Shown here: positions 1,756 through 15,335 of the stretch, one piece after another
Numbering within the stretch: the first letter of the stretch is position 1
Layout of the letters: every line of letters begins with the position of its first letter
Assembly (NCBI GenBank): GCA_033807695.1
Contig: CM066306.1
Span: forward strand, 2,232,001-2,296,000
DNA from: Daedaleopsis sinensis
Taxonomy: Eukaryota > Basidiomycota > Agaricomycetes > Polyporales > Polyporaceae
Direction of reading: 5' to 3'
Length of the DNA stretch: 64,000 nucleotides
The notes under the pieces: model-generated
Database searches by the model: none
The model's input: the letters and a program-made list of their open reading frames with translations, nothing else
Told to the model about the DNA's origin: nothing
Program-made: the position numbers and the translations under genes

Positions 1756-2096
1756 TGTTGGAGTACTAGCGCTGACGAAGACGTTATAGGCACGCAATCA
1801 GTACGCCCACAGACCGAGTCAATCAATCTCGGATCTTTCCCTTCCCGCTACACGCCTCGTTGTTCGTCTCGTTGTCCCCCACATATACCGCGTCCTCACG
1901 AACCCGGTGCTTCAGTCTCTTCTCCCATACTGAAGCACCGGTGAGCATATCTGTACGATCCCCATGCATTCCTTCTATACTGACATTATGTAGTTCGTGT
2001 CTAGGTACTTAGCTATGGACAATATGAGTCTCTTCTCCCATACTGAAGCACCGTTCGTGTCTAGCTCTCCCCCTCTCGACGGCTCGACCTTTGACA
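1756..2096 (+). repeat. LTR1: 3' LTR of Copia element 1
   Basis: It starts TGTTGGAG directly after the polypurine tract and probably ends TTTGACA at 2096 (TG...CA ends; the right end is inferred). A TATA-like ACATATAC lies at 1881. About 25 nt downstream is a perfect 13-bp inverted repeat (1904-1916 with 1929-1941, 12-nt loop) whose right arm runs into a GTGAGC splice-donor motif. The leader block 1914-1940 plus 1994-2004 recurs intron-less at 2027-2064 (separate entry). No second LTR copy is in the window, so target-site duplications cannot be tested. Confidence 0.75.
1914..2064 (+). other. Intron-bearing LTR leader followed by its processed copy (LTR1)
   Basis: Copy 1 is a 27-nt block (1914-1940), a 53-nt intron-like segment (1941-1993: GTGAGC donor, CTGAC branch-like motif, TGTAG acceptor) and an 11-nt block TTCGTGTCTAG (1994-2004). 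After a short spacer that begins GTACTT, copy 2 (2027-2064) repeats the 27-nt and 11-nt blocks without the 53-nt segment; all 38 nt are identical. Copy 2 therefore has the sequence expected from splicing copy 1. The spacer plus copy 2 could itself form a second intron (GTACTT to GTCTAG at 2064). The relation is seen directly; splicing is inferred. Confidence 0.8.
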
Positions 2097-2099
2097 AAG

Positions 2100-4872
2100 A
2101 CTATATATCTAAGGTGCACAGAATGGCATGCAAGAAGTGGATAACCGAGGTTGCACTGACCCAGTAACCAAAGTCTGTAAAGCACATTTCCCTCGAGACA
2201 CTTTTACTGAAACTGCAGTAGATCCAGAATCAGGAGCCCTCATTATGAAGAAGGGAGAACCTTGGCTGAATACATTTACCCCGTCAGCCTCATACCTACT
2301 CCGGTGCAATCATGATGTGACAAGTTTACTGTCAGGAACTGCTATAAAGTCGGTCATTGCTTATGTAGCTGACTATATCACTAAAACACCATTGAAAACC
2401 AATGTTATGTTCCAATCTATCCAATAGGTTTTTGAGAGAAATGTTGAGTTAATTGGGGGTGACCGCAGTTCCAAAGATAAAGCTCGATCATTAGTCACTA
2501 AGATGGTCAATGCATTGACTGCAGCATCAGAGATAGGAGGTCTTATGGCTGCTATGTATCTACTGAAACATCCAGATCATTACACTGGTTACAAGTTCCA
2601 AGCATGCTTTTGGAGAGGATACATACTTAAGATCATGCGAGCATGGGAAGATTCAAAGGACATATTACAAGAGGGTAGATCAACCATGGTTGTAGATTGC
2701 GAGAAGAGCAATATTGAAGGCCCAAAGTGTATAATCATAGGAGACCTATTCCCAAGTGTCGCAGAAGGACCATTTTCTTACAGGCAGATGCAAAGGATGC
2801 CTATGAATCTGATGAGTTTGAGGACAACTATCATGTGGACGAGGGAATTCCAAGAAATCTTGGAGCTAGCAACAGTGATCAATTAGAAGGCGAAGAACCT
2901 GATGTTGCTGGAAATAGCAATGATGAAATATCAGATGATGAAGAAACAACATGCTGTGGTGGAGGTAAACTAATGCTGCCGGTACCAGATGATGATTCTG
3001 AGGATGAGTCATTACTCACATCCAAGACTAATGCCAAGCTTGAACATGAAGTCCGCATTGCCATGAGTAATTGAACCAAGGCCAATATTCTCTCGTACTC
3101 CAACTTCTCAGATAAATATCTGCAGGCCCGAACACATGAGGTATGCCTACTTGATGAGAAGGAGTCCTTTGTACCTAACTTTATTGGTGGCGCAATACCT
3201 GCAAAAGATGTTGGAAGTAGAGAGGAGTATTGCATGACAATGTTGACTCTATTCAAGCCTTGGAGGTCAGGTAGAGACTTGCAACCAAACTCAGGGACTT
3301 CATGGAGTGATATTTTTGAAAGTCATATATCCACTAAACAAGAACAAAAGGATATGAAATTCTTTCACATTACATATAAGTGCAATGACGCGAGAGATGA
3401 CTTCTCTGCCCAATGTAAACAAGCAGAGAAGGAGGTACCAACCCAATGTATATGAGCAATAGTGACATGGATGAGATTGACACTCAAGCTGTTGTGTTTG
3501 ATCTGGCCCACAGGGAGGATGACATAGTGAATGCTGAAGATTGGGATCAAGACAGTACTGCAGAAATATTAAGAAAATCATGTATGGCAACCACTGAAAA
3601 TGTTATGAAGATATCAGGTTGGATGGACCGCATGGATTCCGCTTCGGAGGAGTATCCAGGATATCTACACTGCCTAGGAGATTAAGGCCAGATAAGCCTT
3701 TCACAGACTGGAAAACCCCGTTGGACAATCTAAGGAAAGATACCCTAGATGCGAGAAGCAAGCAAGAAAGATGATTTCGGGGACAAGTTACCTGAGAATG
3801 ATGCAGTAAATCAAGTAAAGTTTGTGGATAAGCAGTACTTCTGGCCAAAGAGTTTGAGGGCCGTGATCCACAATCCAAGGAACTTATTGACAGTACGGTG
3901 GCTTCATTCAGTTTGAACGAGGAGCAAGAAAGAGCATTTCATATTGTTGCCAACCATGCTGTACAATCTTGCGGTGAACACTTGAAGATGTACTTGGGCA
4001 GTATGGCAGGGACTGGTAAATCACAAGTGATTAAAGCCCTATCTCATTTCTTTGCAGAGAGGCAAGAAAGCTATCGGTTTATGTGTCTAGCACCGACTGG
4101 GTCAGCTGCAGCATTAATCAAGTTAGAGATCGACTAAGATTGGTGCAATATATATTTGTAGATGAGGTCAGCATGGTGGACTGCGGAAGTCTATATAAGA
4201 TATGTGCAAAGATATGCACTGCAATACAAAATGATGGTGCACCCTTTGGAGGGATCAATATGATTTTCGCTGGTGATTTTGCTCAACTTCCTCCTGCCAT
4301 GTGTGGGAAGGCATTATATGTCCATGATGTAGGGTGGGTAATTCACTGAACCCATAACCACAACAAGCAAAAAGCATCTATTGGGAAAGCATTATGGCAT
4401 CAGTTTACTACAGTAGTCATTCTTAGACAGAACATGAGACAACAGTTTCAAACACCTGAGGATGCCAAGTTGCAGACAGCATTAGAAAATCTTACGTACC
4501 GGGCATGTACCAAGGATGACATTCAACTACTAAAGTCTAGAGTTGCTGGTCGAGGTCCAAATAATCCTAAGCTAAATTAACCCAACTTTCGCATTGTCTC
4601 AGTTATTGCTTCATGGAACTCTTATAGACAAGATCAATGAACTCGGATGCAAAAGGTTTGCAAGAGAGAATAGAACAGCATTGAAGTCTTTCTATTCAAT
4701 TGACAAACTTACTTCAGAGACTAACCCATCAGAGCTGACTAAAAAAGTTCGTGCCAAGCAGGTGAATCCCAAGAGAGAGAAAGAATAATATTGTGAATGA
4801 GAAACTTCAGGAGACCTTATGTGGGCTATCGCATCATTTGACAGAGCATCATCCTGGCACACTTGAGCTCTG
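2100..4872 (+). pseudogene. Decayed Helitron: helitron-like N domain and PIF1-type helicase
   Basis: Broken reading frames on the plus strand resemble fungal Helitron proteins in the right order. At 2128-2886 is the Helitron N-terminal region (LLRCNHDVTSLLSGTAIK, AYVADYITKT, SLVTKMVNALTA, MAAMYLLKHPDHYT). At 3898-4349 is a PIF1-family helicase with a Walker A loop (MAGTGKSQ), APTGSAAALI, a Walker B-like VDEVSM and NMIFAGDFAQLPP. At 4793-4872 is the late motif PGTLELCVGM. There are several frameshifts and stops, and an internal deletion near 4130 joins helicase motif Ia almost directly to motif II. The AT-rich composition contrasts with the nearby Copia. Helitron termini (5' TC, 3' hairpin-CTRR) were not identified. 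It cannot encode a working rolling-circle transposase. Confidence 0.88.
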
Positions 4873-5625
4873 CGTTGGGATGCTTGTTCTCAAGCTGGAG
4901 CAGGTATTCCAGCAATCTCTGGCCACACCGCCGACAATGAGCCTCATTCAGGCTAGAAATCACATTAGAGATATGCTCGGTTGCAAGAATCCTGAGTTAG
5001 CTGCACGAGAGAAGACTTATACTGATCTTTATGAGCTAGCTGAGAGACTACTAGCAGTAGATGAAGATGTCCTAACCAAGACTAACATTTGCTGCCATTG
5101 CGATTATAAGTTTGATGAGAATCATTTGTCACAAGTAATGTGGACATATATAGAGAACACATAGAAGAATAATCCAGAGAAGTTAGGTACATACAAAGGT
5201 AAGACAACATCAAAATGGATACATGCATTAAGAACACAGCATAGAGAAACTCCTTGCCCCCACTGCTGTTATCCAATGCTAAGATATAGGGAGTACAATG
5301 CTTGGCCTCCTTTTATCTCATTTATCATTAATGGGCACAAAATGTGCTTGGACCATCAGATTGTCTTCCCTTCTTTAAGGAGGCTGGTGTGCGGCCAGAC
5401 AGGTTCTCGCTGCCACACAAACTTGCAGCTGCCTGGGTAGAGTTTGCTGCTCACCATATGTGGCATGGTCCGCTCCTTCCACCGATTCCTGAGCATCACA
5501 TCTGGGACAGTCTCGACCTTGAAGACTACAATGCTGAGGACCCCGATGATGTTGCTGAGTGCCATGCAGCCCTAGAGGATGATGAAGATGGTGGGCCTGT
5601 GGATGATACCGACATACTTGGTTGA
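4873..5625 (+). pseudogene. Unassigned decayed ORF with paired cysteines, between Helitron and Plavaka parts
   Basis: The frame continues from the helicase into sequence I cannot place in the helicase family. It contains a C-x2-C pair (CCHCDYKF near 5092), then after a TAG at 5162 a second pair (CPHCC near 5260) and a hydrophobic PPFISFIINGHK stretch. After a frame change comes an acidic segment (DLEDYNAEDPDDVAE, 5512-5560). Two CxxC pairs about 55 residues apart suggest a zinc-binding module. It may be a passenger gene carried by the Helitron, or the upstream part of the Plavaka remnant. No function is assigned. Confidence 0.4.
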
Positions 5626-6375
5626 GTCACTCTTGTGAAGCGTAAAGGTGCACCTCTAGCCATTGTCAGAGGAGACTATGGGTAGTACTAATACCTAGCA
5701 TCTATAGCGCAAGAATATCCCAAGAACCTCACCCTGCTCGCCGGCCACATTGGTGTACCAGAGCTTCCAGAGCTTGTCTGATGTTTTCTCTCTACACAGG
5801 TGCACCCCGAGTCTCTCGTCCCAGGAGAGGAAGCGGACATTGATCTCTGTCTACCTCCTCCAGCTCATGCCACAGTCATTCTGTTTGCAGTCACTATCTT
5901 CCATGCCCCAAGTGACATCTGTGGGATCAGGGGCATGAAGAAAGAGAGGATACGAGCCACATGCTCATGGTGTGGCGGTCTACCACACTATGACTGTAGA
6001 TATGTAGACAAAGATGAAACTCTTTCTAGATTCTGAGGTCTTAGCACTGTGTGTGTGCATTTACTATTCTCTTTCAAGTACACCAATGGTGTTACATATC
6101 CCTGTGCTCTTGTCTCGTGGTTTGGGTTTGTCCCTGTGAGTGACAGACCATGCGAACAGACGGGGTTATGGATGGTAGAGCCACAGATGGACCAGTTTGG
6201 TCGCTATGTCACATCAGTCATCCACCTTGATTGTATGCTACGTGCTGCTCATCTGATTGGTGTGGCTGGCAATGATCCTATACCTATCCATCTGGCCCAT
6301 ACTACCGACTTGTAGATGCTTTCACAGCCTTCTATGTCAACAAATACGCATACCATCATGCACACGAAATAGCAT
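5626..6375 (+). pseudogene. Plavaka (CMC superfamily) transposase, C-terminal remnant
   Basis: Broken plus-strand frames match the C-terminal part of Plavaka transposases: HIGVPELPELV (5746-5780), FHAPSDICGIRGMKKERIR (5899-5955), YPCALVSWFG (6096-6128), GRYVTSVIHLDCMLRAAHLI (6201-6260) and finally AFTAFYVNKYAYHHAHE (about 6318-6370, one frame over). The catalytic core is not present, so this is a dead 3' fragment. It sits immediately downstream of the Helitron remnant and may have been captured by it or inserted next to it. Confidence 0.75.
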
Positions 6376-6605
6376 ACTAGTTACTTTACAGTGGCCTGCA
6401 CATTACTGCTAGTCTACTATGTCCTAATATTACTTCATATATCAAGTAGCATTGACTTCGCACCATATGATGTCACAAGTTTATAGTCATAGAGTCAAGT
6501 AGTATATGCCCTAACAAGGAGAGCAAGTCCAGCTGCTGCATCCCAAGTGGTCCTCTTGCTCCAAGTCCTCAAGGACTTGACTTGAGAGTGTTAAAGTCTG
6601 GTATT
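6376..6605. other. No gene recognised (about 230 bp)
   Basis: AT-rich sequence between the Plavaka remnant and LTR4. A short palindromic patch (AAGTCCTCAAGGACTT, about 6564-6579) is the only structure seen. Confidence 0.5.
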
Positions 6606-6780
6606 TGTCAGCCTAACAACTGTACGAATACGTGAGTAGAGTATTGCAGACAACATAGTATGGAAACTTACCTCAGTAGAATGGTACAACTAGCTGAGGT
6701 AAGAGGGAGAAGGGGAAGATGAAGTTTAAGTACTGGCGTCTATGCCACGCAGGGAACTCGTGACTAGCATAACTCTAACA
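6606..6780 (-). repeat. LTR4: Copia LTR on the minus strand, with hairpin and intron
   Basis: Read on the minus strand it begins TGTTAGAG after the purine tract GAGGAGGAG and probably ends GCTGACA (TG...CA), 175 bp. A 9-bp inverted repeat (TTACCTCAG / CTGAGGTAA) lies near 6696-6667. Its right arm contains a consensus donor GTAAGT at 6671, followed 52 nt later by a TACAG acceptor (6620). Unlike LTR1-LTR3 there is no processed copy of the leader downstream; either it never existed or the element is truncated there. Confidence 0.6.
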
Positions 6781-6894
6781 CTCCTCCTCAGTGCAAAAAT
6801 GAATGAGAAAGATACCGTAAGGAAAGTGGGTGAGTATGTAGTGATGTAGGCTTGTAATTAAGGTAATGAAACTCCTCCTTGCATGGAAAATATG

Positions 6895-7146
6895 CTAGTG
6901 TAAACCAAGACGGGCACGTAGAAGAAGGAATTGAGGACGTGGGAGAGGTTTCGTAAAAATGTCGGCAACATTATCCTTGGTGGGTATCCAGTGCAGTAAG
7001 ATTTGCTTCGAATTAGAGTACTCGTGTAATATGTGATGCTTAACTTCTATATGTTTAGAGCGAGCGTGGAAGGTGGGCTTACCAGAAAGAGAGATAGTGC
7101 CAGTGTTATTGGCGGCAATGGGAGAGGGATCAAGTTGGGGGTACAC
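6895..7146 (-). pseudogene. Copia RNase H C-terminal fragment
   Basis: An 83-codon minus-strand open frame shows the C-terminal Copia RNase H signature: ANNTGTISLSG, KHIEVKHHILHE, HWIPTKDNVADIFTKPL. It ends at a stop just before two purine tracts (AAGGAGGAG near 6873 and GAGGAGGAG at 6781-6789), the second of which precedes LTR4. The rest of the element is missing upstream; at about 7147 the similarity stops. Confidence 0.85.
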
Positions 7147-7423
7147 TAGCTGTGGTAGTTCTGATGTATTACAAACAGGTACTTTGTCTAAGCCTTATTG
7201 CAATAGGAACAGGCAGGGCATATGATGTATTACGAAGCTCTGGGGAGGAGCTGGGCACCATCAGCTTGGCAAACCCAATTAGGCAAAAAGATGCAAAAGG
7301 CTTGATATCTAGCAAATCAAGCAGATCCAATGCTTATCTCTATAGATAATAGCACTATTAGGCCTGTCCTGGGAGCACTTTTGGGCACCTATTTTCGTTC
7401 CAGCATTCCCACACCTTCCTGCA

Positions 7424-7451
7424 CCTGATTAGGTAATTTGCTGGGGGCTAC
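7424..7451 (+). repeat. Left part of repeat R1 (interrupted copy)
   Basis: The sequence from CCTGCACCTGATTAGG up to GGGGGCTAC matches the minus-strand copy at about 15296-15323. It is cut at 7452 by the Tc1/mariner-like element and continues at 10285. Confidence 0.75.
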
Positions 7452-7453
7452 TA

Positions 7454-7472
7454 AGGTAGGCCCGGCACAGAC
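7454..7472 (+). repeat. Left TIR of the Tc1/mariner-like element
   Basis: AGGTAGGCCCGGCACAGAC, preceded by the TA target duplication at 7452-7453. Confidence 0.93.
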
Positions 7473-7652
7473 TCAACCATGTCGTTACACTGTGACATGG
7501 GTGTGACAGGTCACGTGTGATCTGCCGATAAGTCCTACTTTAGCACACTAAGTCTCGAAGCCTGCCGTTCTCGTTCTCCACGTACATTTACTACCAAGAT
7601 GTATACTATATGACTACACAAGATGTACTATATGTTCAAGGAGTGTGATGTA

Positions 7653-10032
7653 TTAAGAGTCATAGTGTGCATCATCAAATTGAGCCAAGATGTTGTGAGG
7701 AAGAGTACGGTGTCCATGGTATTGTTTAGTAGCCCAAGCAGCTTGACTCCCGGTCAGTCCTTTGTGGTATGCATCCATGAAGTGATATGCACAGTTATAG
7801 AACCTATAGACAAGGTCAGATGAGTAAGTAAGTCAATATCTAAAGCACTTACCGCCGGATCTGCAGTGTTGTTACTGAATCCAAAGCTGTGAGCATATTG
7901 CGCTCCAAATCAGCCTCGAGTGAAGATGGTGGAAACTCCCAGTAGATCCGCTTCGCAGCACACCAGCACTGCTTAATTGGGTTAAGTTCACAATGGAACT
8001 TTGGCAGAAATATCACGTCAAACCCCCTTGCATGGCAATGAGTTTCAACGAGAGATTCCACATCCCGAAAGTCAGGCTGTTCATAAAGTAGCCGTCTGCA
8101 GCAGCACTGTGTCGCACCAGGAGGGCATTTGAAGCTGGGGCACTCCGCTCGCAGGCTAGCAGCATTTGAGAAACCCCGCTCCTCAAGAATGTGGGCCATT
8201 CCTTTGAATCTCCCATCAGGAAAATATAGAGACTGAGGAGTGCCATCAGGGAGGGTTGTGCTGCACATGGGGATCTTCTTTTTGAGTCGCTTTCCATCAG
8301 GACCATAGACAATCTTCCCGTCAGGGCCAGTGACACATGTATCCACTGCAAAGGGAGCCTTTCCAGGACGGGTTGGCCACTTGGGCATGCGACGTGCAGA
8401 GAGAGCATCATCGGCACGCTTGAGGTGAGTGAGTGCATTGTCGAGGATGAAACAGAACCGCTGGTCTGGATAGTCTGTGGTGCAGATGTCCATGGCGCTA
8501 GTGAGTTGATCGAGGATTTCTTGATGGGTGAAATAACCATCATGGTTTTTTCCCGCCCAAACAATGACACGTGCAGAACGTGACCCATCCTTTGACTTGA
8601 ACCAGCCAAACTCGGGGCTGACAAAGTCCGCTGCCATCAGAGATGCACCCTCACCCTTCTTCCGTGGTACAGCCTTCTCTGTTGGTGAGATCCAGCGAGT
8701 CTCCCGGCGGTCATGAGCATAGAACTGGGATTCGTCGTGGAAAAGATAATGGAGAGGACGGTTTTGAGGGTGACAGACAGGAGAGTTCGATGGAATAGGG
8801 GTGCCGTCAAGGGAGTTGTATTGTGGAGCATCGTGATCAAGCTCTGCAAGCTTTGGAAGGAAGACTTCTTGATGGTACTTCACAACATTATCCCACTCGT
8901 GTCCATCCACGTACTGGCCATGAGGTGCCTTCCCCCAACGATATTCTAGGTCGTGCATCCACTCCTGCGCCGTTGACAAAGCAATAGTCTTCTTCAGGCC
9001 ATGCTCCTCTTGAACCTTGGGGATGGCAAGATATTCCACCATGTTGAGGGCACGGACATACTTGCCAACCCCTTGAAGGTGAGCTATAATTGCTTGTCGC
9101 AGGTTATCATCCTCAAGAAGAGAGTGCTTCGAGTCGACTCCACGCTTCTCAAGAGGAAGAGCATGACGATCATGAATGAAAGCAGATGTCCACGCTCGGA
9201 GAACTTTTGCACGATGGACACCACCTTCAAACGTGAACGCAGTACACAACGATGCCTCTATCCAGCCAACTCCATGGTCACCATTGGCATATATCCAGAG
9301 GAGTGTCCGCATATGTGTCATCCGAAGAAACAGCCGGTCATCGCCTTCCTTGAAAGGAAGATGCCCATGTTTTCCTTTTGAACGACGTGGCTGCAGAAGC
9401 TCAACAAGATCGGCATGAGCCGACTTGGCTTCCTCGCGGGTTGGGGGTACTCCAGAGCGAGAAGGTGTGTAGGCAGAGTGCTCTTCAGAGTCATCATCCT
9501 CCTGGTCCAAGACAGACATGGAGCATGCAACAGGAGGTGGTACTAACCCTGCGGGCAACCCCACAGGGTTAGTAGCAGGAATGGTGCAAGCAGAGGCCAG
9601 GGAAAGACTCAGAAATGATGAGATTGGTGCACTAGATGGATGGCAGGGTGGTGTTTGAGACACTGATGACAAAACCCTATTTGCCTGAGCCGGGACACTG
9701 GGTTGAAGGAGAGCAGGAGGAGGGGGAGAGGGTTGATCTACTTGGACTGCAGATCTGAAACCGGAAGGAGCCTGTTGGCATGTTTAGTAAGTTAGTAGTA
9801 GCTGGAAAATTTTCTTACTACTCACATTCTCCTTTTCCCCTTCATTCTGGACAGTGCCAGCAATGTGGAATCGTTTCCGTGCGTGATCTCCCAGATTACT
9901 GGTTCTCTGGTACACAGAATGCTTCCTTTTGGGAATTGCTAGCACCGTCAAGGCCAGTGAAGAGCAATTGGCGCTGTGGACTCGATTTTCCAGTGCCAGC
10001 GCTAGGATTCCCAGGCTGTCACCACTTACCGC
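7653..10032 (-). CDS. DDE transposase, three exons, probably catalytically dead
   Basis: The reading frame runs over three exons. An upstream open stretch (10032-9826) joins via a 54-nt intron (9825-9772, GTGAGT, ACTAAC branch, CAACAG) to the main exon (9771-7853), then via a 49-nt intron (7852-7804, GTAAGT...CTATAG) to a last exon (7803-7653, stop TAA) encoding a typical tail (HFMDAYHKGL). The start is unsettled: exon 1 has no in-frame ATG, and the first ATG in the main exon is at 9519. DDE landmarks are the first Asp in FHDESQFYAHD, the second in FILDNALTH, and the third acidic block in FHCELNPIKQCW. The family is known to carry E where this copy has K, so a GAG to AAG change has removed the third metal ligand. 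The frame is otherwise uninterrupted, up to 758 codons. Confidence 0.85.
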
Positions 10033-10263
10033 TCATAAATAAATATATTATTTGAAGGGCAGTCAAACATTTCGAATGGGATAATGTAGAGACTCTATAT
10101 CAGAAATTGAGAACCAACAAAACTTACAGCAGGGTGCCCTCTATAACTTGTTGGTTCCACATTTTTGATATATTGATTACAGGAGTTCACATTCAAAATA
10201 CAGTGTGCGCCCTCTGCCAAAGTCCCTTAAGCGTGACAGACGCTGGTCACGTGACGTAGTTGT

Positions 10264-10282
10264 GTCTGTGCCGGGCCTACCT
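10264..10282 (-). repeat. Right TIR of the Tc1/mariner-like element
   Basis: Exact reverse complement of the left TIR, followed by TA at 10283-10284. Confidence 0.93.
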
Positions 10283-10284
10283 TA

Positions 10285-10661
10285 TAGGTGGGGGATTGGT
10301 TCTACTATTGCTCCCTCAATTCTGGATGGATTTGGATGGTTGTAGGTGCATTAGAGAGGTATTACAAGGGCTATTTGAGCACACCATAGAGAGGGTGTAC
10401 TATAGCTACATACATGCTATAAATTGCGACCTGATAGGCATAAATGCAGGTTTTCAATGGGGTATGGCCTATTTGGTTCTAGGTGGACATATGGGTGTTC
10501 ATTTCTCCTAGAATACAGTACAGGAGCACTCTCCAACAAGCCCATGATCATAGAATTTCATTCAGTAATTGGGGAGATATACTGTCCCTGCCCCACGAGG
10601 AGGAGGGGTCAGTATATCTCCATCAATTATGGTTGGAATTCTTTCGAGTTTTTTTGTAATA
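10285..10661 (+). repeat. Right part of repeat R1 (plus-strand copy)
   Basis: Continuation of R1 after the transposon insertion. It is highly similar to the minus-strand copy at 14888-15296, including a shared short frame (GGGLVLLLLPQF...DGCRCIREVLQG) that stays open in both copies. The similarity ends at 10661, where LTR3 begins; the paralogue continues with different sequence, so the Copia 2 insertion (or its junction) defines this edge. Confidence 0.8.
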
Positions 10662-10919
10662 TGTGAAAGGCTAATCCGTATGTCAGTGAGTCTCACTCGT
10701 GTGGTGGTAGAACGAGTGTTATTAACCTAATCGGTATGTCAGTGAGTCTACAGACATACATTAGCTAGGATACTGTGGGATAGGATACGGGATATGAGCT
10801 CACCTCACTCATGTGGTGGTAGAACGAGTGAGGGTTGAGATTGTGACTATGTAGAGTAAATACCCGTGCGGGTGATACCGACGAGGGGAGCATTGACGCT
10901 GGAACAGTGGCGCTCAATA
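10662..10919 (-). repeat. LTR3: 3' LTR of Copia element 2 (minus strand)
   Basis: Read on the minus strand it starts TATTGAG (probably a decayed TGTTGAG) after the purine tract GAGGAGGAG (10928-10920) and ends CCTTTCACA at 10662, exactly where R1 homology stops. It contains the inverted repeat CCTCACTC / GAGTGAGG. The right arm abuts the donor GTGAGC (10803) of a 56-nt intron-like segment, and a processed copy of the leader lies downstream (separate entry). The LTR is about 258 bp. Confidence 0.75.
10671..10830 (-). other. Intron-bearing LTR leader followed by its processed copy (LTR3)
   Basis: On the minus strand, copy 1 is a 27-nt block (10830-10804), a 56-nt intron-like segment (10803-10748: GTGAGC donor, CTAAT branch-like motif, CTGTAG acceptor) and a 21-nt block (10747-10727). 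After the 8-nt spacer GTTAATAA comes copy 2: the same 27-nt block (10718-10692) fused directly to the 21-nt block (10691-10671). The exon-like parts match at 46 of 48 positions. The sequence is unrelated to those of LTR1 and LTR2 although the plan is identical. Confidence 0.8.
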
Positions 10920-11028
10920 CTCCTCCTCGACCAGAAGACGGTAGAGGTAAGTATGGGTGAACATAGAGAGGAAAGGGAAGGAAAAGAAGAATAGCACAAT
11001 GTATGGATACTCCTCCTCGCATGAAGAA

Positions 11029-13181
11029 CTAACATAAGCCAAGGAAACCGCGAAGGCGGGTGAACACGGGAGATGCGAGAGGTTTTGTAAAAATGTCCGC
11101 GAGGTTGTTGGAGCTGGGAATGTAATGAACGGACATAAACTGCTCAGCAGTATGATGGCGGAGGATGTGATGTTTGATCTCGATGTGTTTTGTGCGGGCG
11201 TGGAAGGACTGGTCGCCGGAGAGGACAATGGCACTGTTATTGTCGACGAACAGCGGGGAGGCGGTAGGTTGAGGGTAGCTGAGTGCGTCGAGCAGTTGGC
11301 GGAGCCACACACACTCCTTGGAAGTGTCAGCGGTGGCAATGTATTCGGCTTCCGTGGATGAGTCGGAAACGGAGTGCTGTTTACGAGCAGCCCAGGAGAT
11401 GACCCCAGATCCGAGTGAGAAGCAGTAACCGCCGACAGACTTTCGGGAATCAGGGCAGCATGCCCAATCGGAGTCGGAGAAGCCCAGTAGATTCGCGACA
11501 CGAGATCCACCCAGTGTGAGTTCGAGGTCGCGGGTGCCTTTCAAGTAATGAACAACATGTTTCGCGGCCTCCCAATGGTCGGCCGTGAAGCAGTCCAAGA
11601 ATTGGGCGAGCTGCTGCATCGCAAAGGAGATGTCGGGTCGAGTCGCGACAGCGATGTAGTTCAGGCTGCCGACAAGAGACCGGTAGGGCAGGTGAGATAC
11701 AGCGGGGTGCTCAGTGTCGGCGTGTTCGCGGGACAGCTTAACGGCGGGGTCCATGGGGGTTGACACGGGCGTAGCGGAACCGAGGTGAAATTCGGCGACA
11801 ATCTTGTCGATCAGCGCGGGTTGGGAGAGGGACACAGTGCGGAGAGCGCGGTCGCGATGGATAGAAATCCCGACGCAGAAACAGGCCTCGCCGAGGTCGG
11901 ATATTTCCCATGCCGAGCGAAGGTCGGATTTGAAGTGGACCGCGGCGAGCGGGGAACTGATGCCAGCGAGGAAGTTGTCGACGTAAGCACCAGTGATGAC
12001 GCCTCCCTCGGGAGTGACACGGACGTAGATGCTGAGTTCGCACTCCACACACACAAACCCGACAGATTTCAGGTGGGCGTCCATGGTGCGGTTCCAGACT
12101 TGTCTGCTGTTGGGTAGACCATAGAGCTTTTACCAGCTTCCAGACCCAAGACTCCTTCCCACGCTCCTCGAAGCCGGGGGGCTGCTCCATGTAGCACTCT
12201 TGGCCATCACCGAGTAGGCCGTAGAGGTAAGCAGTTTTAATGTTGACCTGATGTAGTTCCCAGCCGAGTGCCGCGGTGATGTGACAAATAACACGGAAGG
12301 ACTCCATGCGCATAGTGGGAGAGGAAGTTTTCGTGTAGTCCTGTCCGAAAACGGCTTCATTGCCTCGCGCGACCCATCGAACTTTGAAACGCGCGGGTTC
12401 TCTGAGCTTGTTGTGTTTGAGTCGGAAGACGGGACGTCCGCACAGGATTTTTTGGTTGGCGGGGACAGCTGAGCAAGGGACGAGTTCGTAGACGCCAAAT
12501 TCTCGAATGGATTTGAATTCGTCTTCCAGAGCGGCGCGCCATTGGTCGGCGAATGGACTGTCGAAAGCTTCCCTAAGGGAGCTGGGGTCACCTTTGTAGG
12601 GATGCGGCCAGGGCTAGATCAGAGTTGGACCAGAGGGCATCGGCAGCCGCAGACCAAATGCCGTGACGAGCGACGTGTTCAGCGCACACACGCTCTCCAG
12701 CAACAGCGGACTCTTGGACCATCTCACGCAACCGATCAATGTGTGGCACGCCAGTGGCGGCCGCACATTTTTCTGTGGGTTGGCAAACGCGAGCAGGGTG
12801 GAGAGAACGCGGGGCAGGAGGGACGGCCAGAACGGGAGGCGGGGTGACGACGTGCACAGGGTCGGCAGGGGGGGCCGCAGCGACAGCGGTTGGCAAGGGC
12901 ACGGGCGCGGGTATGACAGAGGGAACAGGTGACACTGGACGGGGAGGGACATCGTCGTGAAGGGGAGAAGGGGGTGGGGGGGAAGGGTGGGGAAGGGGGA
13001 GCAACGGGAGGTGGAGGGTCGTAATGTAAAGGATCTTCGTGAGACTCAATAAACTGGACATGGAAAGAGGAAATGACGCGATGGGTAGCACGGTGGTATA
13101 GACGGTAAGTCTTCAAATCAGGCCCGTACCCAATAAGAACACATTCGAACGAACGTGGGCATGAAGAATTGCATGATATAT
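11029..13181 (-). pseudogene. Copia element 2: 5'-truncated pol with frameshift and mutated active sites
   Basis: A minus-strand Copia whose 5' half is missing. Near 13180 it enters in the SH3-like linker after integrase (SFECVLIGYGPDLKTYRLYH), passes a Pro-rich stretch, then RT (about 12610-11700) and RNase H (about 11500-11040, KHIEIKHHILR, IPSSNNLADIFTKPL). A frameshift near 12130 separates HQVNIKTAYLYG and YMEQPPGFEERG from the following RT segment. Two catalytic Asp residues are Asn: VNIKTAYL in place of VDIKTAYL, and GAYVDNFL in place of YVDD. Upstream, at the truncation, is a small tandem repeat of CTTTAAGACA (about 13199-13233). The element is dead. Confidence 0.9.
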
Positions 13182-13970
13182 GGCCCATACACAGATTAAG
13201 ACTTAAAGACACTTTAAGACACTTTAAGACACCTGCCACAGACACAGTTTGCGGCAATATAATTGTATATGTACACAGTCTATGCACGAGTGATGATTAT
13301 AGGTAATTAAGCAGCAGATGTAGCTACTAGAGTGTTGAACTTGTGGTTAGTTGTACAGATAGAAGCGTGTTAGACGCTGCAAGTAGGTATAATGTCAACG
13401 GGAATCAGTTATTGGTCATTCAAAAGTGGTATCCGGTCCTGTGCTAAGTCAACAAAGTAACTAACAAACTATTGAAATCTTGTCCTGCGGCAGAAGGTAA
13501 TCCGGTCCGGCCATTTAGCGCCTTCGGTCCACCGTGAATCAATCATCGGTCCCGACCTTCGACAGAGAGGTAACGGGAGAGCATACGGACCTCAAATCAG
13601 TGTCAGCAGATAGGTAATGAATTCTCAAATACTAGAAAAATGCTCGCTCATCCACTAGGTGTTTCGAAGAAGTCCTACATTCCTCCGATATGACCGAACA
13701 GACAAGCGCTTCATGCTGTTAAGTCGAGGAGGCGCCCGGTGACTGCTAGCGCGCGATATACTTACCCCAAATAAGGTAAGGCGCCCGTGGAACGGGTGTA
13801 TACGAGAAGATGGTCTAGAAGGGGACAGGGATGTAAAAGAGTAGATATAGTATTTTTCCTGGCATGAGGAGGACACAAGAAAGCGATTGAGATTGTCAAA
13901 AGGGGCGAGGAGGATGGAGGGAGGGAGATCTAGCTTGGGCTGGACCGATGCTCGATCCCAAGGCGAAGAG
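13182..13970. other. No intact gene; possible 3' UTR of a plus-strand Copia
   Basis: No coding similarity was recognised. The purine-rich CATGAGGAGGAC at about 13863 resembles the first purine tract found after the stop codon of the two minus-strand Copia copies, and GGCGAAGAG at 13962-13970 resembles a polypurine tract directly before LTR2. The stretch may therefore be the decayed 3' end of the element that owned LTR2. Confidence 0.3.
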
Positions 13971-14228
13971 TGTCAGTGGCCGGGACCAATGCTTGATTTC
14001 CGTTGACATTATACCATTTTGCTTAGACGCTATGGACACAGCCTCATACGATACTTCTCTCGGTTATCTCGGTTACCTTTTATCTCTCGTTCATTGTTCC
14101 CTATATAGCAACTATTGTACTTTCATTGCTTCTCTCCTTCATTTGTTGTTTTACGTCGCTGCAGATCACTTCTCCGTGGTCAGATGATCACTCCTTTATT
14201 CCTTCTTTAGATATCTCTTTGTCTCTAC

Positions 14229-14299
14229 TGAGTCAGCTACGCACAGCACGACTCAGCTCACTCCGTTCCTCATGAGTCAGCCTCGTACTGCCTGACTCA
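14229..14299 (+). promoter_or_regulatory. Cluster of Gcn4/AP-1-like sites in LTR2 U3
   Basis: Three exact TGA(G/C)TCA heptamers (14229-14235, 14273-14279, 14293-14299) and one near match, CGACTCA (14249-14255), lie within 71 bp, about 50-120 bp upstream of the TATA box. This is the consensus bound by Gcn4/CPC1-type bZIP factors. Binding is inferred from the motif only. Confidence 0.55.
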
Positions 14300-14384
14300 T
14301 CTCGTCACATGTCTCTCCTCTAGTCGCTTACTCATGCTGCTCCTATACGGTATATAAGGAGGGACTCTCTGGCTCGGACTCCTC

Positions 14385-14549
14385 AGTCTTTTGCTCACTG
14401 ACTGAGGAGTAAGTACACTCACCTACATATGCTCTCTTATGCTTTACTTACAAGTATCTACAGTGCCCTTCCGTGTGTCTCTAGGTACTTGCTCATCTAT
14501 GCTATAGTCTTTGCTCACTGACTGAGGACGCCCTTCCGTGTGTCTCTAG
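14385..14549 (+). other. Intron-bearing LTR leader followed by its processed copy (LTR2)
   Basis: Copy 1 is a 24-nt block (14385-14408), a 55-nt intron-like segment (14409-14463: GTAAGT donor, CTTAC branch-like motif, CTACAG acceptor) and a 21-nt block (14464-14484). After a spacer starting GTACTT, copy 2 has the first block (14506-14528, one T shorter) joined directly to the 21-nt block (14529-14549, one mismatch). The spacer and copy 2 could be removed as a second intron (GTACTT to CTCTAG). Confidence 0.8.
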
Positions 14550-14573
14550 TCATTGCGTCTCTTTGCCTTCACA

Positions 14574-14887
14574 GGTTCAGACTTCATCATAGAGCCACAT
14601 AGCAGTATGCACATTCATGCAGAAATAGAGGTTCTATAAGGTAATCAGATTGCATGAAGGGCAGGAGGAGAGGGTAGTGATACTGGATGATTCTGTGGAT
14701 CAATTGCCATGATATCTATACCGTTAGAAAGGTACATGCTGTGGCTTTCCAGCAATGTATATAATAACAGTGTGCATCGGGAACTGCACATTCTATGCAG
14801 GATGAAACACCTCTGTGGCTGAAGTATTAGTTCCCTCCTCTATATAGCTCTTGATATTTTATGGCCAGGAATCATGGGCACCCTGCA
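14574..14887. other. No gene recognised
   Basis: The first bases after LTR2 (GGTTCAGACTTC) could be a decayed primer-binding region, which would make LTR2 a 5' LTR instead. Otherwise nothing was recognised. Confidence 0.35.
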
Positions 14888-15335
14888 TCACGTACATAGG
14901 TAGAGTGTATTACAAAAAAACTCGAAAGAATTCCAACCATAATTGATGGAGATATACTGACCCCTCCTCCTCATGGGGCAGGGACAGTATATCTCCCCAA
15001 CTACTGAATGAAATTCTATGATCATGGGCTTGTTGGAGAGTGCTCTTGTACTGTATTCTAGGACAATTGAACACCCATATGTCCACATAGAACTAAGTAG
15101 GCTATACCCCATTGAAAACCTGCATTTATGCTTATCAGGCTGCAATTTATAGCATGTATGTAGCTATAGTATACCCCCTCTATGGTGTGCTTTAATGGCC
15201 CTTGTAATACCTCTCTAATGCACCTACAACCATCCGAATCCATCCGGAATTGAGGGAGCAATAGTAGAACCAATCCCCCACCTATTGTAGCCCCCAGCAA
15301 ATTACCTAATCAGGTGCAGGGGCCTAGGCTTGTTT
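14888..15335 (-). repeat. Repeat R1, uninterrupted minus-strand copy
   Basis: Inverted paralogue of 7424-7451 plus 10285-10661. It spans the site where the other copy carries the Tc1/mariner-like element and so serves as an empty-site reference. It has a short frame open in both copies, but no recognisable protein domain. R1 is probably itself a fragment of a larger repeat. Confidence 0.8.

Follow-up and report, generated by a model that had tools for sequence, protein, structure and literature searches.

Long terminal repeats of Copia elements in Daedaleopsis sinensis hold an intron-bearing leader and a second copy that lacks the intron

RESULTS

Three LTRs with a split leader and a contiguous copy

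Most of the Copia retrotransposon loci examined in the fungus Daedaleopsis sinensis carry the same leader twice within the long terminal repeat (LTR) inspected, once split by an intron-like segment and once contiguous. The first copy consists of exon A, a GT..AG segment of 50 to 62 nucleotides (nt) that we call intron 1, and exon B; a short spacer follows, and then A fused directly to B (AB). The arrangement was noticed in three LTRs of one 64,000-nt stretch of the genome, referred to here as the window (C7:2232001-2296000; the genome comprises 51.6 Mb in 24 contigs), and these three cases are samples of a rule among this genome's Copia elements. In terms of the classical unique 3′ (U3), repeated (R), and unique 5′ (U5) regions of an LTR, it is likely that R is the spliced AB, formed by splicing at the 5′ end of the RNA, already contiguous near the 3′ end, and homogenized at each minus-strand transfer.

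LTR1 (1756 to 2096, plus strand; TGTTGG..TTGACA) is the 3′ LTR of an element whose reverse transcriptase (RT), at 288 to 1019, matches PF07727 (RVT_2-type RT), as expected of Ty1/Copia. Exon A (1914 to 1940) begins at the presumed transcription start, with a TATA-like motif 30 to 32 nt upstream, and is preceded by the U3 arm of a hairpin (1904 to 1913), which pairs with the end of A and with the first G of intron 1. Intron 1 (1941 to 1993; 53 nt, GTGAGC..TGTAG, with a branch-like CTGAC) separates A from exon B (1994 to 2004), which has TAG at its end. The spacer (2005 to 2026) and the contiguous AB (2027 to 2064), which is identical to A plus B at 38/38 positions and is the putative R for strand transfer, together form a candidate intron 2 (2005 to 2064, GT..TAG), and U5 (2065 to 2096) completes the LTR.

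LTR2 (13333 to 14589, plus strand) is read as a solo LTR and has the same order of parts: exon A (14385 to 14408), a 55-nt GT..AG intron 1 (14409 to 14463), exon B (14464 to 14484), a candidate intron 2 (14485 to 14549) composed of the spacer (14485 to 14505) and AB (14506 to 14549), and U5 (14550 to 14589). Its AB lacks one T and has one mismatch relative to A plus B. An RVT_2 RT is present in LTR2 relatives (L044 to L054; L numbers denote genome loci or pieces retrieved for comparison). The U3 region of LTR2 is interrupted by a nested insertion of ∼644 bp (∼13379 to 14022) that, by eye, is flanked by a 9-bp target duplication (TTAGACGCT) and has inverted ends of ∼23 bp (GCAAGTAGGTATAATGTCAACGG and CCGTTGACATTATACCATTTTGC), resembling a small element of the Mutator-like or miniature inverted-repeat type. 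LTR3 (10662 to 10919) lies on the minus strand, as does the RT of its element (C7:2243752-2244490, window 11752 to 12490), which also matches PF07727. Its exon A (10804 to 10829), 56-nt GT..AG intron 1 (10748 to 10803), exon B (10727 to 10747), and candidate intron 2 (10671 to 10726; spacer 10726 to 10718 and AB 10717 to 10671) follow the same plan, and two mismatches distinguish AB from A plus B.

A recheck of all three LTRs reproduced the coordinates and copy identities of the original prediction, which was made from the window sequence. Its statement that the families have no A or B sequence in common was slightly too strong, because, by eye, exon A starts with AGTCT in both LTR1 and LTR2 and exon B ends in GTGTCTAG in LTR1 and GTGTCTCTAG in LTR2. 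A scan of the window, which also holds one Gypsy match (121 Gypsy integrase matches were listed for the genome), found no A-intron-B-spacer-AB arrangement beyond the three LTRs. The leader regions have at least 3 (LTR1), at least 30 (LTR2), and at least 5 (LTR3) matches in the genome.

Recurrence among the Copia elements of the genome

As the original prediction had proposed, the Copia LTRs of this genome were tested for the A-intron-B-spacer-AB plan. Of 86 genomic matches to PF07727, 55 score ≥150 bits, and the 3′ side was examined at 53 of these 55 strong RT loci (L039 to L068, 30 loci; L069 to L088, 20 loci; window LTR1; L036; and L037), the other two being at C5:1461379 and C7:955424. The full plan is present at 38/53 loci (23 + 12 + 3), counting L088, in which the spacer does not start with GT. 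By eye, L079 retains the plan in decayed form. Three loci resemble intron loss, L049 reading AB-spacer-AB and, by eye, L065 and L086 reading U3-AB-U5. The four loci of the L070 family (L070, L073, L076, and L087) have an R-spacer-R arrangement with one intron, in which a 23-nt R is followed by a GT-spacer-R segment with an AG end and intron 1 is absent. The LTR is truncated at the end of intron 1 in L067 and has no duplication in L059, and five loci (L058, L060, L066, L074, and L085) are uninformative, with no LTR within the examined piece.

Run at a looser setting, the duplication scan returned 62 rows, of which 44 were kept and 18 were dropped. Kept rows had ≤1 mismatch, an A of >15 nt, and an intron of <70 nt, plus the decayed L088 with two mismatches. 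The dropped rows were matches with two or three mismatches or a short A (one, in L024, with one mismatch); several were tandem repeats, and the one-intron L070 family and a decayed relative, L093, were among them. The 44 distinct LTRs fell into 22 clusters by A plus B, and because L024 belongs to LTR2, they represent 21 families. With ≤1 mismatch over 20 nt, the duplication was found in 11/20 Copia 3′ ends (L069 to L088) versus 0/400 dinucleotide-shuffled versions of those loci, and a chance origin was rejected on this basis. The layout holds in all three window families, which had been called unrelated, but these are a small sample of the 21 families, and the elements are related Copia lineages.

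The RT domains are 40 to 49% identical to that of LTR2 (nine rows were aligned with LTR2; the LTR3 RT is outside the alignment). In the RT tree, LTR2 is grouped with the plain-LTR L059 (98/91), which sits on a long branch, and the rows from this genome are not united in one supported clade. The plan-bearing lineages are diverse, and one Copia lineage (L059) is without the plan. Within L080 (413 to 713), an LTR ending inside exon A directly abuts a complete LTR of the same family, in a tandem element pair.

Sequences from other sources were also searched. Among viral contigs, 67 stretches contain the pattern, and none encodes a relative. In 42 loci from records titled as bacteria or archaea, which are apparently contaminating eukaryotic DNA (230 kb), a scan allowing ≤2 mismatches in 18 nt and listing the best 4 matches per strand gave scattered matches, none of them resembling the plan; with no host known to be fungal, this result says little about spread. 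The one match without mismatches among these loci, in L106, is a 42-nt tandem repeat and not the plan.

Candidate splice signals of the two segments

GT..AG edges and a CTNAY branch-like motif, with its A 11 to 18 nt from the 3′ end, mark intron 1 in 22/22 clusters, so that all of them have the features of a spliceosomal intron. The first B has AG at its end and the spacer has GT at its start, so that the spacer plus the second AB make up a GT..AG segment of their own. The matching between the B copies, for which no edge was imposed, stops exactly at AG|GT in 36/44 LTRs; it extends 2 nt further in L037, L038, and L095, stops 1 nt earlier in L064, L069, L071, and L096, and is decayed in L088. 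Intron 2 starts with GT in 21/21 clusters with a parsed B, in a parse that imposed AG|GT. Since the B copies stop at AG|GT, the genomic A-B-U5 string equals the 5′ end of a doubly spliced RNA, and removal of both introns from the RNA is predicted from these signals.

The 3′ edge of intron 2 is distinctive in three families (L064, L069, and L071/L075), in which the 3′ LTR ends on the A of the intron 2 AG and lacks the G. Directly after the LTR in L002, L035, L038, L092, and L095 lies GGTTATGAGCCC, a putative primer-binding site (PBS) for half of the initiator methionine tRNA. Flanking DNA gives the next base at the 3′ LTRs L089, L091, and L094, whereas the first G of the PBS completes the AG at the 5′ LTRs L092 (CTACA|GGTTATGAG) and L095 (GATTATA|GGTTATGAG). 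These 5′ LTRs represent two of the families; L069, the third, looks alike, and no 5′ LTR of it was seen. Where the last G of the acceptor is the first G of the PBS, the acceptor exists only in the 5′ LTR. The 5′ LTR L092 (C8:3485756) also has a deletion from U3 to intron 1 between CTCACC repeats, a region that is intact in its 3′ LTR, L091.

These edges bear on the cycle first proposed, in which complementary DNA (cDNA) of the spliced leader is joined to a 3′ end that kept the intron. In its closest form, only intron 1 is spliced, and the leader is joined to a 3′ end stopping in the spacer by end joining or by a jump without R homology. An end-to-end join of this kind would also place the second copy at the presumed transcription start (+1) and make the preceding base variable in some families. 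Splicing of intron 1 alone, however, would produce a leader reading AB-spacer-AB, and every transfer would lengthen the resulting array by one AB unless spacer-AB is removed; no third copy of the last 14 nt of A was found in the loci of kept LTRs tested (the three window LTRs and L088 were outside this test, and L002 and L083 show a single exact copy because their two copies differ). The AG end of B, the GT start of the spacer, and the PBS-supplied G are likewise left unexplained, and we regard splicing of intron 1 alone as unlikely. The second copy probably does originate from spliced RNA, and the cycle is better described by a doubly spliced 5′ end and an ordinary R-to-R transfer in which R is AB.

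Start of the second copy

The second copy begins at, or ≤3 nt from, an A preceded by TC. Its left edge is offset from the presumed +1 by 0 nt in 15, −1 nt in 6, and −3 nt in 2 of 23 cases, an agreement that is not independent because +1 was chosen as the TCA(G/C) nearest the copy edge. A TATA-like motif lies 30 to 34 nt upstream in 17/23, at 26 or 39 nt in two, and is absent in four, by a count that admits loose motifs (TATA, TATT, and TTTAA) and has no chance control. A copy edge at the presumed start implies that the copied molecule plausibly reached the 5′ end of the RNA.

In some families, the base before the second A is variable. In 15 LTR2 elements it is T in 10, A in 4, and C in 1, with A occurring on both spacer backgrounds, whereas C precedes the first A in 24/25 parsed LTR2 copies. 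Nine other groups have comparable members (LTR1 is outside this comparison), and the base varies in L039 (a/t/t), L055 (c, gc, and t), and L035/L036 (c/a). Reverse transcriptases add untemplated bases at template ends, so a variable base is one possible appearance of a strand-transfer junction at the second copy, and the position before the second A could be that junction. The literature searched contained nothing matching untemplated bases at strand transfer.

Concerted change and apparent loss of intron 1

The two copies change together within elements. Both copies carry a run of five T's in two LTR2 elements (C8:2.71M and C7:2.81M) and CTAACT in each LTR of the element at C3:2.29M (L028/L029), and the LTR1 subfamilies differ in A and B (B: TTCGT versus TCTCT) with both copies alike. 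Differences confined to one copy, found in the window LTR2 and LTR3 and in L017, L026, L002, L037, and L083, look like later mutations. A C-to-T change in both B copies of L024 could represent two independent CpG mutations. Intron 1 is precisely absent from both LTRs of L028/L029, and L030/33, L065, and L086 read U3-AB-U5. The former locus (L028/L029 and L049, C3:2.296-2.302M) is an LTR2-family element with a 1,563-amino-acid open frame, both LTRs being exactly without intron 1.

Concerted change alone could be gene conversion, which raises an explanation with no splicing: the two copies would be an old partial tandem repeat that gene conversion or template switching keeps homogeneous, with incidental GT..AG edges. 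The U3-AB-U5 LTRs are compatible with it, as they are expected from deletion between the A copies. Under this explanation, however, one would have to account for GT..AG edges and branch-like motifs in 22/22 clusters, a second edge at AG|GT, the precise loss of intron 1 in L028/L029, and a left edge at the presumed start; we consider it very improbable. That the spliced copy is regenerated within each element, as originally proposed, is supported by a copy that lacks intron 1 exactly, starts at the presumed start, changes with the first copy between subfamilies, and, in some families, follows a variable base. As for the further argument against a single ancient duplication, the elements are related Copia lineages, so that the plan may have had one origin followed by concerted evolution.

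Proposed replication cycle

In the favored cycle, with R as the spliced AB, transcription of the 5′ LTR would start at A, and introns 1 and 2 (the latter being the spacer plus AB) would be spliced out to give an RNA starting A-B-U5-PBS. The 3′ end would keep U3-A-intron 1-B-spacer-AB, with poly(A) added in or just after the second AB, and AB would thus be present at both RNA ends. Minus-strand strong-stop DNA, complementary to AB-U5, would be copied from the spliced 5′ end as far as the cap and would then make an ordinary R-R jump to the contiguous AB of the 3′ end. U3-A-intron 1-B-spacer-AB-U5 would be rebuilt, the second AB being overwritten in each cycle by a copy of the spliced first AB.

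The spacers are AT-rich, at 76%, against an AT content of 48, 58, and 55% in A, intron 1, and B, respectively. AATA occurs in 13/20 spacers (mean of 5.7 and maximum of 12 in 2,000 shuffles). If poly(A) is added within or just downstream of the second AB, as we propose, splicing of intron 2 would take that region out of the 5′ leader. In retroviruses whose R contains the signal, the 5′ copy has to be silenced by other means (PMC12789967).

The U3/A hairpin

Intron 1 would have to survive at the 3′ end of the RNA, and a hairpin may explain how. In 21/21 rows folded, the last 3 to 9 bases of U3 form a stem with the end of A, adjacent to the intron 1 donor. Because the RNA presumably begins inside the 5′ arm of the stem, only RNA from the 3′ LTR can form the hairpin; the arm would be absent from RNA starting at +1. 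The paired arm might keep the 3′ splice site from use and might equally hide the first A from incoming cDNA, steering it to the second A. Over 23 LTRs, the mean fold energy is −19.7 kcal/mol with the U3 arm and −6.2 kcal/mol for RNA from +1, versus −11.6 kcal/mol with shuffled arms and −8.0 kcal/mol at the second copy; ≤5% of shuffled arms match the cognate fold in 22/23 LTRs. The stem covaries, with three or four pair types at positions −2 to −7 and three plus one G-U at position −8, and in 22/26 LTRs U3 pairs with six or more of the nine bases of the splice site. Cognate arms fold better than swapped arms (−22.6 versus −19.7 on average; 0/10,000 permutations), a test whose significance is overstated because the families are related. 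In local folds, the exposure of the splice site differs on average between the RNA ends (mean unpaired, 0.25 to 0.47 versus 0.11 to 0.12). The L070 family has the same design, with a fold of −25 with the arm and −0.2 without it.

The splicing cycle may be right and the hairpin used otherwise, as a promoter palindrome or in 3′-end processing or packaging, with intron 1 surviving because introns near poly(A) sites splice poorly. The arm spans the presumed start, a usual position for promoter elements, and the local difference in exposure is weak or absent in several families, LTR2 included. On the other hand, the arm and the exon end covary, the stem often reaches the first bases of the intron, and the second copy has no such arm. 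Such another role for the hairpin is a possibility that we take seriously but somewhat doubt. The chances are about even that replication proceeds obligatorily via the spliceosome, with R created by splicing and stored as a spliced copy inside an intron and with the hairpin telling the LTRs apart, the same splice site being open at the 5′ end and shut at the 3′ end.

Several observations weigh against the cycle or its parts, in addition to the plain LTR of L059, the deletion route to U3-AB-U5, the dependence of +1 on the copy edge, and the loose TATA motifs. For intron 2, CTNAY occurs 11 to 22 nt from the 3′ end in only 11/21 clusters, the donors are weak (GTAC.. and GTTA..), and another 5′ LTR, L090, has A at the position of the PBS G. 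A poly(A) signal in the spacer is a guess. The base before the second A is constant in 6/9 groups (L041, L077, L064, L071, L080, and L037), and in LTR2 its column ranks third of 550 in variability, tied with one intron 1 column, behind two columns far upstream in U3. With regard to the hairpin, only 4/9 splice-site bases are paired in L035, L039, L041, and L043; the cognate U3 ranks 26th of 26 in L035, 22nd in L043, 21st in L041, and 19th in LTR3; and pairing with the first 10 bases of the intron alone is weak (493/10,000). In global folds of the whole leader, the splice site is not clearly more exposed at one RNA end than at the other, and in local folds the difference is absent in LTR2 (L005, shut in both), L035, and L061 to L068, with L080 mixed.

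Other features of the window

Directly 3′ of LTR1, positions 2100 to 6200 of the window contain degraded coding sequence with a GTGKS P-loop that, by eye, resembles a PIF1/Helitron-type helicase. An ∼85-nt hairpin-bearing repeat (GGAGATATACTG..CAGTATATCTCC), also recognized by eye, occurs at 10573 to 10660 and at 14905 to 15000; the two copies are in inverted orientation and flank the LTR3 remnant and LTR2.

DISCUSSION

If the cycle is correct, splicing is part of reverse transcription in a set of Copia lineages, beyond making extra mRNAs, and the spliced RNA of the element is recorded in the DNA of its LTR. The layout would give a concrete answer to how the 5′ copy avoids poly(A) addition and the 3′ copy performs it despite identical ends. 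The transcription start, splicing, and strand-transfer position would be readable from DNA alone, and annotation based on U3-R-U5 would misplace R in such elements. The original prediction knew of no description of such an LTR, and we likewise found none in the literature on LTR architecture, in a search whose coverage left out most subscription papers. One candidate, PMC5542766, concerns an engineered vector and is not relevant.

The elements resemble classical LTR retrotransposons and retroviruses in having two LTRs, pol with RVT_2, and a candidate PBS immediately downstream of the 5′ LTR, and they would also resemble them in having R at both RNA ends for the minus-strand jump. The classical U3-R-U5 scheme needs a contiguous R from the start to the poly(A) site, whereas here A and B are split by 50 to 62 nt and the contiguous AB lies ∼100 nt downstream of the presumed start, as placed by TATA spacing and the copy edge. 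The transfer edge and the transcription start would thus be different places, unlike in the classical scheme. The predicted splice donor inside R has a counterpart in human T-cell leukemia virus and bovine leukemia virus, where such a donor serves other mRNAs; we know of no spliced R copy in the LTR of either. Ogre and Drosophila copia are also intron-bearing LTR elements, but their introns lie in the internal part and are removed from the RNA, whereas the candidate introns described here are part of the LTR, and it is the spliced form that would be written back. In human immunodeficiency virus type 1 and foamy virus, a U1-bound major splice donor suppresses the 5′ poly(A) site (PMC12789967). 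The likeness is that splicing machinery near the 5′ end helps silence an upstream poly(A) site; the difference is that in the Copia elements the predicted poly(A) region lies inside an LTR intron and would be removed with it, and the 3′ part of that intron copies the RNA's own 5′ end.

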